From NCBI GenBank assembly GCA_016213435.1, contig JACRAL010000120.1:1-35443 (forward strand): a stretch of 35,443 nucleotides of DNA, in the 5' to 3' direction. The DNA is from Bacteroidota bacterium. GTDB taxonomy: Bacteria > Bacteroidota > Bacteroidia > Palsa-948. The first letter of the stretch is position 1. Each line of letters opens with the position of its first letter. Under the pieces are notes generated by a model, which saw only the letters and a list, made by a program, of their open reading frames with translations, did no database searches and had not been told where the DNA came from. Positions 11,497-17,885 of this stretch are shown one piece after another. A program made the translations under genes and the position numbers.

Positions 11497-12171
11497 ATGC
11501 AGACAATAAATAATTACGGAAGAGAATTTGCACCCAACCGTTCTAAAAGAAACCTGCTCATGCTGTATGTTATCTGTGGTTTGTTTATTTGTGTCGGTGT
11601 TGGGATGATTATAGCCGGCTTACAGGGTGAGACGGATCTTATAACAGGTGGCATGGTAATGACGGGGTTTGCAACATTCCTTCTGCTGCTCGGTCATTTT
11701 TTTACTTCTCCTTTAAATGTTGCTTATTATGTAAGTTCAAGCGGCATTATTCTCAAACAAGGAAAAAAAATTCTAACGATACCTTATGGAGAGCTTGAAT
11801 CAATCACTCATCTCAGGGAAGAACAATCGGAAGAATTTATTCTGAAACTTCAAAATAAATTGGTTGACAAACAGAGAGAAGATATCAGTGAAGCATTGGA
11901 AGCAAAACAAGAATTTAATTTTGGTACCATGTTTCAAAAGACAAAAGATGCTTTTAAGAAACAAGCAAAAGATTTTGAAAAATATAAGTTTCTGAGTGTT
12001 GCTGTTGCTTATTCAGGTTCCGGAAGGCAGCGCGGACCGGCAAAGGCAAGCAGTGTCGATCTCCCATGCGATATGGTTTTCATTTTGTTGAAAAGTGGAG
12101 AATGTTATTTTATTTCTCCTCTTGATATTGAAGGATTTATTAGTGAAGTGAACAGGAATAAAAGAGCATGA
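11497..12171 (+). CDS. Two-helix membrane protein of unknown function, possible PH-like domain
   Basis: The 224-residue protein has two closely spaced membrane segments (about residues 22-42 and 50-70) and a soluble region. The part after the helices (V-S-S-S-G-I-I-L-K-Q-G-K-K-I-L-T-I-P-Y-G) looks like the first strands of a bacterial PH-like domain, interrupted by a charged, probably coiled insert (about 115-170) and resuming with strands around M-V-F-I-L-L-K-S-G-E-C-Y-F-I-S-P. The PH-like reading is an inference from strand pattern. The last bases overlap the next frame by ATGA. I do not recognise a specific family. Confidence 0.7.
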   Translation: MQTINNYGREFAPNRSKRNLLMLYVICGLFICVGVGMIIAGLQGETDLITGGMVMTGFATFLLLLGHFFTSPLNVAYYVSSSGIILKQGKKILTIPYGELESITHLREEQSEEFILKLQNKLVDKQREDISEALEAKQEFNFGTMFQKTKDAFKKQAKDFEKYKFLSVAVAYSGSGRQRGPAKASSVDLPCDMVFILLKSGECYFISPLDIEGFISEVNRNKRA

Positions 12172-12215
12172 TTCATATTTCAGAGATTAAGTATGTTTAC
12201 AAAAAAATTATAACA

Positions 12216-13262
12216 ATGCGTCAGATACTATTTTATTCGATCTTTTTTCTTTTCCATGCTGTAACAAATCTAAAGGCACAAGGAGATATTTTATTCATGC
12301 CATTTTTAGGCAGTACAAATACAGAAGATATTATTGTTTATAACAGCAAAACAGGAGAAACTGCGCAGTGGTATTTTGATAAGAGCAATAAAAAAATGAT
12401 AAAAGAGAAAGGTGGTTTTAAAATAATGAACACAGGATTTGAAGATGGGCGCACGATGATGCAATCATATATTGGTGCTGGGCATACAAGAGTAATTCTT
12501 ACATGGAATACTTCAAGTGCCCGATCTGTTTCCTGGTATTATAATAACAATACTAAAAAACTGGAAAAAAGTCCATTGGAATATCAGTTGCCACAGAATA
12601 TTGGATTATCGGGCAGTGTGATGATGCATGCCTATCTGGATAAAGAGAATACAGAAATAATTTTATGCTGGGAAACAACTACCGGAAAATCAATTTCATT
12701 TTACTACAACAGGTCTGCAAAAAAGTTTATGAAGTCAATGCCCGGTTATCAGCTTCCTGAAGATCCGGGCGTCAAAGGAAAAATCAGGATGCATCCTTAC
12801 ATAACAAAAGACGGAAGTGAAGCGGTGCTTGTTTGGGATGTGAACACAGGCAATTCTATAGCTTATTATTATGAGCGCAATGTGAAAAAATATGTGAAAT
12901 CTCCCGAAGGATTTCAATTGCCTGCAAATACGGGAATAAACGAAGAAGTAATGATGTATCCTTATATAGGCAGAGATGGAAGCGAGGATATATTAGTGTG
13001 GAACTGTAAAACCGGAAAATCGGTTTCGTGGAATTATGATTTAGGAGAAAAGAAATTTATGCCATCACCGGACAGTTACCAGCTTCCGGTAAGTTTTACA
13101 GAAAATGTGATGATGATTCCGCGCGTTGAAAATGGAGACGAGGTTATTTATGTTTGGAACAGCACAAACGGACAATCTGTAAATTATTTATTTGATATGG
13201 AGAAAAAAAGGTATGTGAAATCAGAACAAGAGTATCAACTTCCGCCTAATCCGTTTGAATGA
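12216..13262 (+). CDS. Secreted protein of six ~55-residue repeats (YQLP repeats)
   Basis: From ATG 12216 the protein has 348 residues with a clear signal peptide (M-R-Q-I-L-F-Y ... L-K-A-Q-G, cleavage near residue 22). The frame opens at 12168, overlapping the previous stop, but the extra 16 residues would bury the signal peptide. The mature part is a regular repeat: Q-L-P occurs at residues 124, 179, 234, 289 and 341, a 55-residue period. Each unit has a strand pair such as I-L-V-W-N-x-x-T-G-K-S-x-S-W-Y-Y followed by K-K-F-x-K-S. Six units are visible, the first degenerate. A small beta-propeller or similar is plausible. The family is unknown to me; it is probably exported and co-transcribed with 11497-12171. 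Confidence 0.75.
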   Translation: MRQILFYSIFFLFHAVTNLKAQGDILFMPFLGSTNTEDIIVYNSKTGETAQWYFDKSNKKMIKEKGGFKIMNTGFEDGRTMMQSYIGAGHTRVILTWNTSSARSVSWYYNNNTKKLEKSPLEYQLPQNIGLSGSVMMHAYLDKENTEIILCWETTTGKSISFYYNRSAKKFMKSMPGYQLPEDPGVKGKIRMHPYITKDGSEAVLVWDVNTGNSIAYYYERNVKKYVKSPEGFQLPANTGINEEVMMYPYIGRDGSEDILVWNCKTGKSVSWNYDLGEKKFMPSPDSYQLPVSFTENVMMIPRVENGDEVIYVWNSTNGQSVNYLFDMEKKRYVKSEQEYQLPPNPFE

Positions 13263-13292: not shown

Positions 13293-13541
13293 TTACTTCA
13301 CTCTTTTCACTGCCCAGCCGCTGCCATCGGCAAGTTTGCCGAAAGTATATTTTACAGTGGGAAATTTTTTCATGATGTAATGGCAAATGCGCGTGGGCGT
13401 TTGGCAGCCCTTCCATTCTTTTTTAGAGATAAATAAACTTTCTCCCACATGCAAACCGATGATGGCGTTAAAAAAAGGCGAAGTTTTTCCGCTGCTTATG
13501 AGCGGAAGTTTTGAAAATTCTTCGTCAGAAATTTTTTTCAT
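13293..13541 (-). CDS. Small conserved-looking protein of unknown function
   Basis: An 82-residue soluble protein, M-K-K-I-S-D-E-E-F-S-K-L-P at the start and G-S-G-W-A-V-K-R-V at the end, with a basic central part (K-K-E-W-K-G-C-Q-T-P-T-R-I-C). No signal peptide or membrane segment. Composition and the compact alpha/beta pattern look like a real protein, but I cannot name a family. Its upstream side is unusual: an array of eight 21-bp repeats ends about 50 bp before the start codon. Confidence 0.65.
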   Translation of the reverse strand: MKKISDEEFSKLPLISSGKTSPFFNAIIGLHVGESLFISKKEWKGCQTPTRICHYIMKKFPTVKYTFGKLADGSGWAVKRVK

Positions 13542-13591
13542 GATTGATTTTTTTTGATGAAATTACAAAACGAGAATACCATTTTTCTAAA

Positions 13592-13759
13592 AGCATTCAA
13601 TCAAAACATAACAGCGTTTAATCAAAGTTTAACATCGTTCAATCGAAGTTTAACATCGTTTAATCAAAACATAAATACGTTCAAACAAAACATAACATCG
13701 TTTAATCAAACTCTAACAGCGTTTAATTAAAGTTTAACATCGTTTAATCAAAACATAAA
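13592..13759. repeat. Tandem array of eight 21-bp units
   Basis: Units start at 13592, 13613, 13634, 13655, 13676, 13697, 13718 and 13739 with no spacer. The core is CGTTTAATCAAA followed by either AGTTTAAC or AACATAAC/A; variants alternate (unit 1 CATTCAATC, unit 3 CGTTCAATCGAAG, unit 6 CAAACTCTAAC). Every frame is closed by stops, so it is not coding. It lies between the terminator at 13781-13810 and the start of the 82-residue gene, so it occupies that gene's upstream region. Confidence 0.93.
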
Positions 13760-13780
13760 TCAGAATAGTGTTTTTAACAA

Positions 13781-13810
13781 AAAAAATCCGCTTATAGCGG
13801 ATTTTTTTTG
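13781..13810. terminator. Terminator after the M4 peptidase-paralogue operon
   Basis: TCCGCT (13787-13792) pairs with AGCGGA (13796-13801) around a 3-nt loop, flanked by six A on the left and eight T on the right, so the stem extends through A-T pairs. It lies 15 bp past the stop of the minus-strand gene at 13826 and should end that transcript. Confidence 0.85.
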
Positions 13811-13825
13811 TTTTTTAAGTTTTTA

Positions 13826-14341
13826 TTACGGTACCGGATTCGCAGGAGGTGGGGTGCTGCCCTGATTGCCGCCTTGTCCTTCAAACATGGGCGACAGATC
13901 GTCCACCACTGCATCGGCACCCGGCACCTGATTATCGGCTGCCTGCTTGGAGTAATCGTAGAGTTGGCGTGTCCATATATATGCTTCGCTGCCTGCCACT
14001 TGCTGGGTATCCTTATATATTTCCAGTATCTGCGCAAGCTGCCCTGTTAGGTTTTCCATCTGGTCGTAAAAAGTTAAATCGCTGGCTGCCTCGGCAAGTG
14101 TGCCCACTCCCAAACCGGCAACTCCGGTGGCAAGAACGGCATTGTTGGGTCCATGATTTTTTATTGCCCGCTGCACGTATGGGTAGCGCGTGTTGTTGAT
14201 GTTGGGCAAACTTGTGCGCTCGGCTTTTGTAAGATTAAACTGCAGGGGCATGTTTGCCGGATTTTTCAGCGCGGTGATGGCTGCCTGCAGAGCCGTTACC
14301 TGCGCGGCTGTGAGTGTGATGTTGATTTTTGAGAATGGCAT
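13826..14341 (-). CDS. Unknown Bacteroidota protein, shorter paralogue
   Basis: 171 residues, no signal peptide. It opens with M-P-F-S-K-I-N-I-T-L-T and contains L-T-K-A-E-R-T-S-L-P-N-I-N, R-Y-P-Y-V-Q-R-A-I, D-T-Q-Q-V-A-G-S-E-A-Y and N-Q-V-P-G-A-D-A-V-V-D-D-L. These blocks are shared nearly word for word with the first ~155 residues of the neighbour at 14493-15464, so the two are duplicates. The pattern (mostly helical, with the AGSEAY and VPGA motifs) recalls a widespread uncharacterised Bacteroidota family. The tail is Gly/Pro-rich (G-S-T-P-P-P-A-N-P-V-P). The DNA is clearly richer in G+C than its surroundings, which suggests transfer. It is last in the operon. Confidence 0.8.
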   Translation of the reverse strand: MPFSKINITLTAAQVTALQAAITALKNPANMPLQFNLTKAERTSLPNINNTRYPYVQRAIKNHGPNNAVLATGVAGLGVGTLAEAASDLTFYDQMENLTGQLAQILEIYKDTQQVAGSEAYIWTRQLYDYSKQAADNQVPGADAVVDDLSPMFEGQGGNQGSTPPPANPVP

Positions 14342-14492: not shown

Positions 14493-15464
14493 TTAATTTG
14501 TTGTTACCACCCATCCCCTGCTTCTTAATGCAATTAATGCGGGGAATGCAGGATCGGGCACAGGCATGGTGCCTCCCGAAATATTAAGCAGTCCTCCGCT
14601 GGTTCCGTAATTATTTATTTGTGTGATAAGCGCATACATATTGGTTAATGAAATATGGTTGCCATAAAAGTTAAAGGTGGTTGCCGTGCTGAGATCACCC
14701 GTGATCGTAATATCGGTTGCATTAATATTGGGCATCTGCAATGCCGAAACATCAGTAAACACTCCGGGAGTAATTTCGGTAACTGTTATATTCTTTTGTC
14801 CGGGCAGGGTATACACGTGCTGAAAATTTATGGTGCCTCCTGCAGGCAGATCGGCAGAGTTGGTTTGTCCACTTTCCCATGTGGTGAGTATCGTTCCTCC
14901 GCTTGCCGAAAGATTTCCGGTAATGTTAATTTCCAGAGGCATGCCGCTGATGATGCTTTGATCGGAAGTGATGTTGATGCTTGCTGTTGCAGGCGGTGGC
15001 GCTGGAGCTCCTCCTCCTTTTTCAAAAAGAGTTGCCAGATCATCTACCACCGCATCTGCGCCCGGCACCTGATTGGCGGCTGCATCTTTGGCGCTGTTAT
15101 ATAGCATGCGCGTCCATGTATATGCTTCGCTGCCTGCTACCTGCTGTGTGTCTTCATAAATTTCTAATGCCTGCCTGAGCCGAAGCAGATGCGCTTTCAT
15201 CTGATCATAAAACACAAGATCGTTTGTGGCTTCGGCTTGTGTGCCGGCATAGCCGCTTACGAGTGTGGGGTTTGCCGGACCATGGTTTTCTATGGCGCGC
15301 TGCACATAGGGGTAGCGTTCGCTGTTAATATTGGCAAGCGATGTGCGCTCGGATTTTGTGAGGTTGTACTTTACGGGCAGCGTGTTAATAATGGTATCAA
15401 TGGCTGCTGCAATGGTGCTCATTTCATCGGGCGTGAGGGTGATGTTTATTTTTGAAAAGGGCAT
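14493..15464 (-). CDS. Unknown Bacteroidota protein, longer paralogue with added beta-rich domain
   Basis: 323 residues. Residues 1-155 match the neighbour at 13826-14341 (M-P-F-S-K-I-N-I-T-L-T, D-T-Q-Q-V-A-G-S-E-A-Y, V-P-G-A-D-A-V-V-D-D-L). A Pro/Ala linker follows, then a Ser/Thr/Asn-rich beta region (about 170-323) ending L-R-S-R-G-W-V-V-T-T-N. That ending resembles the last strand of leucine-rich or parallel-beta repeat modules in other Bacteroidota proteins. No signal peptide is visible, so the site of action is unclear. It starts 18 bp after the 143-residue gene and shares its G+C-rich composition with the shorter copy only. Function unknown. Confidence 0.8.
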   Translation of the reverse strand: MPFSKINITLTPDEMSTIAAAIDTIINTLPVKYNLTKSERTSLANINSERYPYVQRAIENHGPANPTLVSGYAGTQAEATNDLVFYDQMKAHLLRLRQALEIYEDTQQVAGSEAYTWTRMLYNSAKDAAANQVPGADAVVDDLATLFEKGGGAPAPPPATASINITSDQSIISGMPLEINITGNLSASGGTILTTWESGQTNSADLPAGGTINFQHVYTLPGQKNITVTEITPGVFTDVSALQMPNINATDITITGDLSTATTFNFYGNHISLTNMYALITQINNYGTSGGLLNISGGTMPVPDPAFPALIALRSRGWVVTTN

Positions 15465-15923: not shown

Positions 15924-17885
15924 TTATTTATTAATAATTATTTTTTTGTTTGTTGTTCCATTTTCAGAATTTATTTCTATAAAGTAGATTCCGTTTGTTT
16001 CTTTTCTTAAATCAACCTGCAATGAATTGGAAAGCATTTCAGAGTGAAAAATTTCTTCGCCTAAAACATTTTCAATTTTTAAATTAATATTTTTATCTGA
16101 AAGAAAAGATGAAATTGTAAAAATGCCGTTTGATGGATTTGGAAAAACTGAAATACTGTTTGAAGAAATAATATTTACAATATTCGTGGGACTACACGGA
16201 CCAACTCCTACAGCACACCAAGCATCCTTCACACTTTTTACTTCTGGAGAAAGTATACCAAACGCTATTGCTGCTGCCTGTATACTGCCATTCATAGCAT
16301 CCGAATAATTGGATGAGTCAGTAAGCATAAATGTAACATTTGAATATGCAATTAGCAAAGCAATATCTATTCCTATTCCATTTACGCTGTAGGAATCTCC
16401 ATTATCGTTTACACCACTGCCACCTTGAGATAAAAGATAAAACCAGTAATTCTGAACGCCACTATTTATATGAACATCACCACCGCCATTCCAATATTGT
16501 CCTCCGTATGTATTTGGTTGCCTTCCATCATAGTTTCCACAACTTCCTGAAATTATTAATCCTGCTTTCGGATTACTCATTGAACGAAAATAATTATGAT
16601 TAGTACATGCAGATGATATAACAATATTCTCACCCATAGTCCAGTTAGCATTTACTCCAAGTGCAAAAAATTCTATGCCGGTACCAAAAATATCGCTGAA
16701 TGATTCGTCTAATGCTCCTGATTCTCCCTGATAAGTTAAATTCGCAGTATATTCAGTAAAAGCATGTGTTAATTCATGACCAGCAACATCCAAACCTACA
16801 ACAGCATTCATTAAAACACCATCGCCATCGCCATATGCCATTAGTGTATCATATGGATCCCAATGAGCATTATTAAAACTATTACCATAATGAACAAGGT
16901 TTACAATATCATGTCCGTTATCATCAAAACTGTTTCGCTGATAATTTGAATAATAAAAGTCATATGCTTTTTCTACTCCCCAATGAACTTGATTTGCTAC
17001 TGGATCAGAGGTAAAACTTGTTGTTGCATTTGGAAAATCTGTCATACTGCCCCAATTGGGAGTAGTATCGTTATTCAAGTTTCTTGTAAGTATTGTTTGT
17101 GAATTAGTTGGTCCGCGAGTTCCATATTCTTCCAAATAATACTTCCCATCAGTCGGATAATAAAAACAAGTAATTGCTTTTGTTCCATTATATAATGTAG
17201 TAGAGGAACCCGTAACATCCCCCTCTTTTATTATGCTTATTTTATTTACTAAATGCCCATCATTTGCATCTATAAAAACTGTCCATGCTTTTCTTAAGCT
17301 TACACCTGCAATATTAAACTTCCAACACAATTTAAAAATTCCATTTTCAGGAGCAATTGATAACACCGGTTTAGGATAATAGGTTGCATTTGGTTTTTTT
17401 GTTTTTCTCTTTAGTGAATTTTCACAAGCGGTATCTTGCCAGCGATACTTTTCTAATCCGCAGTATTTCATCGCATTTGTTATTGCCTCATCTTTTGTAA
17501 TACTTGGGGTTGTATCAAGTGAAAGAGTAGAATAAAATTTTCCGTTTGCGTACGTTGCTTTTCCATCCTTTTCATGTATTATATATTGTGCGCCAACAAT
17601 ATTAATGTCTTTATACTTTTGGGCATATTTATAATGACTACTCCCGTATTTATCCTTAGTAGTTTTTATTAATTCCAATTTATCATCGGCTTGAAATTTA
17701 AATTCATCTTTCATTTCAGTTATAAAGTTTTCGTGATTCACATTTGAATTTGGAGAAAACTCAATAGATGTCGGTACTCCTGAAAAGTTTTTCTTTTTGA
17801 TTTGATAAGTTTCATTTGTGTTTTGTGCATTTGATATTTCAAATGCACAAACCGCAAGAAAAGTGATGAGTAGTTTTGTTTTCAT
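15924..17885 (-). CDS. Secreted M4 (thermolysin-like) zinc metallopeptidase with T9SS sorting domain
   Basis: 653 residues with every element expected of an exported thermolysin relative. A signal peptide (residues 1-20, ending S-N-A-Q-N) is followed by an FTP/PepSY propeptide (~25-220). The peptidase domain has H-E-L-T-H at 370-374, third zinc ligand Glu394 in G-A-L-D-E-S-F-S-D (Asp where Asn is common), and the later V-H-I-N-S-G-V-Q-N catalytic-His block. The last ~75 residues form a type A T9SS sorting domain: V-F-P-N-P-S-N-G, then the beta strands and K-K-I-I-I-N-K. It should cross the outer membrane by T9SS and digest protein outside the cell. It is the first gene of a four-gene minus-strand run. 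Confidence 0.95.
   Translation of the reverse strand: MKTKLLITFLAVCAFEISNAQNTNETYQIKKKNFSGVPTSIEFSPNSNVNHENFITEMKDEFKFQADDKLELIKTTKDKYGSSHYKYAQKYKDINIVGAQYIIHEKDGKATYANGKFYSTLSLDTTPSITKDEAITNAMKYCGLEKYRWQDTACENSLKRKTKKPNATYYPKPVLSIAPENGIFKLCWKFNIAGVSLRKAWTVFIDANDGHLVNKISIIKEGDVTGSSTTLYNGTKAITCFYYPTDGKYYLEEYGTRGPTNSQTILTRNLNNDTTPNWGSMTDFPNATTSFTSDPVANQVHWGVEKAYDFYYSNYQRNSFDDNGHDIVNLVHYGNSFNNAHWDPYDTLMAYGDGDGVLMNAVVGLDVAGHELTHAFTEYTANLTYQGESGALDESFSDIFGTGIEFFALGVNANWTMGENIVISSACTNHNYFRSMSNPKAGLIISGSCGNYDGRQPNTYGGQYWNGGGDVHINSGVQNYWFYLLSQGGSGVNDNGDSYSVNGIGIDIALLIAYSNVTFMLTDSSNYSDAMNGSIQAAAIAFGILSPEVKSVKDAWCAVGVGPCSPTNIVNIISSNSISVFPNPSNGIFTISSFLSDKNINLKIENVLGEEIFHSEMLSNSLQVDLRKETNGIYFIEINSENGTTNKKIIINK

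Follow-up and report, generated by a model that had tools for sequence, protein, structure and literature searches.

A spacerless 21-bp repeat array upstream of an unnamed small gene, and arrays of the same period beside its relatives in Bacteroidia

Our analysis has shown that the 35,443-nucleotide stretch of Bacteroidota DNA studied here (the window) carries eight spacerless 21-bp repeats upstream of an unnamed 82-residue gene. Relatives of this gene have arrays of their own, usually of different sequence, in which the period of two helical turns is kept. This points to a previously undescribed type of pairing between a protein and a DNA array. Our favoured reading is that the array acts in cis, being bound in helical register by the small protein of its own locus, and that this protein would control its own gene; we consider this reading equally likely to prove right or wrong.

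The repeat array and its surroundings in the window

The array was detected by TRF with a period of 21 bp and 7.6 copies (13599-13758), and with a period of 84 bp and 2.0 copies at 90% matches (13596-13760). Eight copies were read when units were taken from 13599 in steps of 21, the final bases of the last unit being degenerate, and the self-match score of the array was 74, whereas none of 300 shuffles scored above 17. These three results confirm the eight spacerless repeats claimed by the first-pass annotation of this DNA. That annotation also described two alternating endings. Both exist (N, AACATAA[CA]; S, AGTTTAAC, with ACTCTAAC once), but they do not simply alternate: the units follow each other as N S S N N S S N, which makes the array two 84-bp blocks of four units each. 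A genome search for the core, proposed at the same time, returned four exact copies of CGTTTAATCAAA in 3.7 Mb, all inside the window array, and the whole array matched nothing else in this genome or in the genomes of six congeners. Rather than lying at many unrelated sites, which the annotation had named as counter-evidence, the window unit was unique to its locus in these genomes. Arrays with the same period and another sequence do exist at other sites, mostly adjoining a few unnamed gene families.

Table 1. Positions of the features discussed, in window coordinates unless stated otherwise
Feature	Position	Strand	Basis or remark
82-residue gene, unnamed family, winged-helix-like predicted element order	13293..13541	-	ATG at 13541
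Gap between array and start codon	13542..13594	-	presumed place of the 82-residue gene's promoter and ribosome site
Array of eight spacerless 21-bp units (NSSN NSSN, 84-bp super-period)	13595..13759	.	TRF and unit reading
Intrinsic terminator, 17-bp arms, between the 171-residue gene and the array	13776..13812	-	inverted repeat, T runs on both strands
171-residue gene, C1 family (~165 aa), predicted helical at low confidence	13826..14341	-	directly upstream of array
323-residue paralogue of the 171-residue protein, extra C-terminal domain	14493..15464	-	
Thermolysin-type M4 peptidase with Por secretion tail	15924..17885	-	upstream of the C1 genes
364-residue protein with sub-cut-off Csx28 match	12168..13262	+	E 1.7e-5, 24.9 bits, cut-off 50
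TTAAACAA boxes of long forms (loci L029-L034, L036-L040)	about -150 to -100 from start		

The 82-residue gene runs on the minus strand, and about 54 bp separate its ATG from the array upstream of it. The array does lie between a terminator and this gene, as annotated, but the terminator belongs after the 171-residue gene and not after the 82-residue gene; the inverted repeat, which has T runs on both strands, had first been listed on the plus strand. No clear consensus for a promoter or ribosome site was found in the gap between array and start codon. A Pfam scan of the eight window proteins around the array gave peptidase and sorting domains and one sub-cut-off match, with no rep-like match. 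The 364-residue protein has a sub-cut-off match to Csx28 that is probably due to chance.

The array is not coding and has no special RNA fold. One of its six frames is open over most of its length (plus strand, 13557-13730, with an ATG at 13557) and would encode FNQSLTS-like heptads, but it stops inside unit 7, and the periods of 22 and 43 found beside a neighbouring family (see below) argue against a ruler based on codons. We therefore regard a coding heptad repeat as almost certainly the wrong explanation here, and it was rejected in general, as every one of the six frames is interrupted by stops in 20 of 47 arrays. A structured or known RNA was also rejected, with no Rfam gathering score reached and fold z-scores of -1.56 and -1.23 for the two strands of the window array. 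A CRISPR-like array was rejected because the repeats are spacerless.

A constant period and changing units upstream of the 82-residue family

Relatives of the 82-residue protein were found in its own genome (six matches to the single protein; seven with a profile, the seventh partial) and in one of six congeners. The family was matched in 30 of 395 genomes drawn from the class, its own genome included, and in several families of that class, whereas a phylum-level draw of 395 genomes, searched with a diverse alignment, gave matches in its own genome only. Up to eight copies occur per genome. No convincing match was found in Pfam, NCBIfam, PHROGs or PDB sequences, distant kinship still being possible, and the protein had no Pfam helix-turn-helix match. 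No relative was found in plasmid records (tblastn with two family members), in viral_contigs or in phages (one member searched). Family genes lie at or near contig ends in six loci (L011, L021, L027, L043, L048 and L057), as expected if arrays break short-read assemblies.

We collected 63 locus entries. Of these, 11 are long forms, with ORFs of 170-190 aa, and 52 are short forms, among which two entries are duplicates. This gave 50 distinct short-form loci, including the window and a few partial matches, of which 45 have at least 400 bp upstream; two further family matches at contig starts (G000:C94 and G127:C161) were left out. Among periods of 8 to 79, the best was 21, 42 or 63 in all 45 testable loci (21 in 32, 42 in nine and 63 in four). 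The five remaining short-form loci have 2-213 bp upstream and are apparently cut by contig ends: arrays were present in 70 and 128 bp, an array was not seen in 156 and 213 bp, and 2 bp is too short to judge. With fixed scoring the 47 arrays reached 19-154, and a score of 19 was reached by only two of 87 control regions, namely downstream or far upstream stretches of the same loci, with periods of 14 and 42. The tie between array and 82-residue gene suggested by the first-pass annotation is therefore supported by every short-form member that could be tested. It holds both with a C1 gene ending at most 700 bp upstream on the same strand (21 of the 44 short-form loci whose upstream DNA reaches 900 bp or more) and without one (23 of 44).

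Arrays contain 2.4-13.8 copies (median 8.6) and lie 4-273 bp from the matched start (median 60), the value of 4 coming from L010, whose start is uncertain. In eight of 47 loci, one with an uncertain start, the array comes within 20 bp of the matched start, so that a promoter behind the array has no room there. The motif TAnnTTTG, which we take to be the Bacteroidetes -7 box, occurs ten times in the 3749 bp between array and start (nine loci), twice in 8237 bp within arrays and three times in 7050 bp just upstream of arrays.

The period is sharply defined. Mean autocorrelation over the 39 arrays of at least 120 bp was +0.37, +0.37 and +0.34 at 21, 42 and 63; it rose slightly above zero at 10-11, 31-32 and 52-53 and was close to zero or negative at other lags. 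The earlier idea of a phase of two helical turns is supported by these peaks, the only sharp ones, and by the periods of 22 and 43 beside C1 genes. Within units (60 arrays), letter phasing at lag 10 was significant (4 of 1000 shuffles as high), whereas phasing of A/T against G/C at this lag was not (151 of 1000). Units are also mildly dyad-symmetric, with none of 300 shuffles as high and, in a second test, 2, 1 and 3 per 100.

In contrast to the period, the units mostly differ between loci of the 82-residue family. On the same strand, unit similarity rises with protein similarity (38 of the 47 arrays, those with full-length proteins; Mantel r 0.415, 0 of 2000 permutations), whereas on the other strand it does not (r 0.06, 252 of 2000). 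This trend could be explained by shared descent alone, and below about 40% protein identity unit similarity is at background. Seven of the 23 pairs with at least 60% protein identity have unit similarity under 0.47, the 95th percentile of the background. In L046/L064, for example, proteins 85% identical go with a unit similarity of 0.44, and in L041/L042 proteins 60% identical go with 0.31. Such pairs either argue against tight coupling of array and protein or indicate that specificity is set by few residues. The nearest congeneric relative (L006) has 59% protein identity and a different unit, which counts against an operator specific to its own protein.

The first-pass annotation had raised the possibility of an unstable array, and the 84-bp block duplication and the range of copy numbers among relatives are compatible with it. 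Two loci of one genome, L008 and L009, have proteins 93% identical and nearly identical repeats in about 10 and 4 units, a difference that represents expansion or contraction of the array. On these grounds the array might be a contingency locus, in which slippage or recombination in steps of two turns tunes or switches the neighbouring gene and leaves the helical phase undisturbed. This explanation accounts neither for a period of 21-22 in unrelated sequences nor for arrays that lie 3' of C1 genes and face convergent genes, and we give it an outside chance.

Pairs of related loci show that blocks of the module have diverged to different extents. In L050/L079 the C1 genes are 95% identical in DNA, but identity drops to 44% in the interval leading from C1 to the array; the arrays are 54% and the 82-residue genes 64% identical. 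Array and 82-residue gene have thus diverged jointly and C1 has been kept, which indicates that the array travels with the 82-residue gene and not with C1. L098 and L112, in genomes G009 and G091, are syntenic: identity is 51, 77, 78, 79, 89, 90, 92 and 94% for the flanking proteins, 58% for C1 and 43% for the 82-residue protein, and the arrays differ. In L123/L127 the downstream proteins are 95-96% identical and the C1 proteins 24%. Conserved flanks around diverged modules imply that the module, or its array half, evolves faster than its surroundings or has been swapped. An exchangeable cassette, consisting of the array with the 82-residue gene or of the whole C1-array-82-residue module, with repeats serving recombination or mobility, would fit these pairs and the copy number per genome. 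The module has no recombinase or transposase, however, its units differ between copies as those of att sites or terminal repeats do not, and fast divergence in place would look identical; a cassette seems to us quite unlikely.

The long forms differ from the short forms in that boxes spaced by 10-11 bp take the place of 21-bp arrays, which counts against the favoured reading. Upstream of the 11 long-form loci there are 32 TTAAACAA boxes (at most one mismatch), compared with six downstream and 7.3 expected from shuffles, an excess that speaks for the favoured reading. Ten of 21 box pairs within 45 bp are 11 bp apart, and a TAnnTTTG box is nearer to the start than the TTAAACAA boxes in nine of 11 long forms. 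These boxes are a testable candidate for the operator of the larger version of the protein. Among the 47 arrays, only that of the window has more than two exact TTAAAC boxes (eight), which may be chance.

Arrays beside the C1 family and elsewhere in the genomes

The C1 family has seven matches in the window's own genome, including the 171-residue protein itself, and was found in 37 of 395 genomes of the class. Profile searches revealed no convincing homology for it, and no relative of the 171-residue protein was found in plasmids. By eye, the C-terminal domain of the 323-residue paralogue also ends a 402-residue protein adjoining another 21-bp array (L211). Syntenic pairs apart, no other neighbour family recurred at a fixed place in 40 loci examined over up to 12 kb.

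Further C1 copies, away from any detected 82-residue gene, were scored for arrays downstream. Arrays with a score of at least 19 were found in 35 of 49 (17 of 20 with 900 bp searched and 18 of 29 with 700 bp searched), with periods of 21, 42 or 63 in 28, of 22 or 44 in five and of 43 in two. Truncated or weak C1 matches, among them G000:C213, G212, G127:C125, G270 and G063, were not scored, nor was the tandem copy G091:C2:381775. Periods of 22 and 43 fit two helical turns. Beyond the array, the next ORF of at least 100 aa is convergent in eight of 13 loci inspected, so these arrays are not promoters of the downstream gene. Because arrays occur 3' of C1 without a detected 82-residue gene, an operator role cannot account for all arrays. 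Our favoured reading is opposed mainly by these arrays and by pairs of the L046/L064 kind.

Similar arrays are also found elsewhere in the two genomes sampled that carry these families. Of the 15 tandem arrays in 400 kb of G091, 14 have a period of 21 or a multiple of it, as do five of eight in 296 kb of the window's own genome (G000), window included. Three of the 14 in G091 are inside long open frames and may be coding; eight of the remaining 11 are followed at 33-144 bp by genes of unnamed families, as are two of the four in the window's genome besides the window array. Some proteins beside these arrays carry fn3 or carboxypeptidase-regulatory domains. The abundance of such arrays could be taken to mean that the window array is a neutral minisatellite placed here by chance. 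In three genomes without either family, on the other hand, we found a single such array in 380 kb of stretches, and the association with one gene family in all testable loci stands against the rare control regions; a neutral origin is highly improbable.

The same observations bear on a second possibility, namely that the arrays are architectural or anchoring sites for a C1-type helical protein or for a general nucleoid factor that reads phase instead of sequence, with the 82-residue gene as one of several partners and its product not their chief reader. Arrays downstream of C1 copies that lack an 82-residue neighbour, the convergent ORFs beyond them, the arrays of G091 upstream of other unnamed genes and the mild dyad symmetry of the units all speak for such sites. 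However, the short-form loci without a C1 gene still have their arrays, and in L050/L079 the array differs beside nearly unchanged C1 genes. A pure phase reader would need no similarity of units within an array, and the model of the 171-residue protein is poor (pLDDT 54), with an uninformative structure search. We think it unlikely, although well worth weighing, that the arrays serve in this way.

Several further observations were made on the proteins and arrays of these stretches. Arrays of 21 bp lie upstream of other unnamed genes in L187, L189, L191, L198, L200, L209 and L211, whose products are 404-415-aa 'NRVNMI' proteins, 336-402-aa 'QEELY' proteins and 210-aa proteins ending in an fn3 domain. 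To the eye, these proteins exchange their C-terminal domains. Small proteins adjoining arrays in L189 (15913-16194), L196 (11562-11933) and L194 (18050-18295) look DNA-binding by eye, and the L194 protein alone of these has a Pfam helix-turn-helix match, below cut-off. Orphan arrays with a period of 21 or 42 were seen in L090 (-5498..-5112), L095 (-8493..-8273) and L121 (-5924..-5687), relative to the 82-residue start; those of L090 and L095 lie near genes named by eye as nucleoside-diphosphate-kinase-like and ATP-synthase-beta-like, respectively. Another period class was found in genome G007, which has neither family: its stretches L234-L237 contain six arrays with a period of 14 bp in 140 kb.

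Tentatively, and with our doubts slightly outweighing our belief, we suggest a genome-wide, undescribed class of repeat elements that are spacerless, have a period of two turns (21-22 bp) and a sequence private to each locus, and are tied to a few unnamed families. These families would be the 82-residue winged-helix-like proteins, the ~165-residue helical proteins and modular proteins with helical and beta domains. A physical ruler would keep the period while array-protein pairs diversify or are swapped as blocks. No description of such arrays was found in the titles and abstracts returned by searches of open-access literature.

The predicted protein, known systems and a possible mechanism

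The model of the 82-residue protein, built from a two-sequence alignment, has a pLDDT of 78.6 and the order helix, helix, strand, helix, helix, strand, strand, which is the winged-helix order. Foldseek gave no match at E<=0.001, and the best VIA-align scores (Z 5.2 for R3H, 5.0 for Stn1 and 4.4-4.9 for RepE54, which is iteron-binding) are all below the required Z of 8. The model is thus a weak pointer to a predicted winged-helix fold.

Plasmid centromeres of the ParR/parC and TubR/tubC systems contain direct repeats in helical phase that adjoin the gene of a small DNA-binding protein. The module described here resembles them in its phased direct repeats and in the small, putative DNA-binding protein encoded next to these, but no motor gene was seen by the array, and two members gave no plasmid record. 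Iteron plasmids also have direct repeats of about two turns (22 bp in R6K, 19 bp in F and P1), and according to the available text of PMC4980987 the binding of Rep to iterons is cooperative and is lost when iterons are displaced by half a turn. With eight repeats of 21 bp, the window array is within the iteron definition of 17-22-bp tandem direct repeats, and as in those plasmids a winged-helix-like protein would be encoded beside it (PMC4980987, available text). Rep, however, has two winged-helix domains, whereas here there is no Rep match, several loci occur per genome and the unit is at no other site. The iteron-like cluster considered by the first-pass annotation is therefore unsupported as a replication origin, given the eight window proteins without a rep-like match, the several relatives per genome and a relative in a 1.33-Mb contig (the window's own contig is 35 kb).

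Parallels may also be provided by BldC and RdfS, winged-helix proteins that, in the available text of PMC11963761, stand in rows on DNA with about one protomer per turn and loose demands on sequence. By analogy with these and with lambda Xis, the 82-residue protein would be a small winged-helix-like protein with one protomer per turn, as proposed here, loose sequence requirements and regulation of its own region (PMC11963761). Their sites are not described in that text as strict tandem arrays of 8-10 units (PMC11963761), and our module is tied to no integrase or conjugative element. A further comparison is with the TAACTGA direct repeats of Beggiatoaceae, Cyanobacteria and some Bacteroidetes, which, in the available text of PMC4679880, are likewise intergenic, just upstream of start codons and present at many loci per genome. 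They consist of one fixed 7-bp sequence, for which that text states no period (PMC4679880), whereas the arrays here combine a fixed period with free sequence.

The precedents of BldC/RdfS and of Rep and its iterons are among the reasons why we favour phased binding of each array by its own protein (PMC11963761 and PMC4980987, as far as their available text describes them). We infer that the 82-residue protein binds DNA, that it binds this array with one protomer per turn and that it may have some effect on transcription. The protein would sit on the repeats in a row along one face of the helix, each 10.5-bp half unit taking about one protomer or each 21-bp unit one dimer, and the assembled row would control transcription of the 82-residue gene and perhaps insulate it from the 171-residue gene. 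The period would be set by protein-protein contact, and the unit sequence would drift locus by locus. With a period fixed by contact and drifting units, we propose that several array-protein pairs could coexist in one genome.

In conclusion, a period that is constant in all 45 testable members while the sequence changes represents a natural experiment on the possible reading of helical phase, instead of letters, by a protein. If confirmed, these loci would constitute many compact regulator-array pairs, each of 82 aa and about 170 bp, and would open a first way into at least two unnamed protein families found repeatedly in genomes of Bacteroidia.
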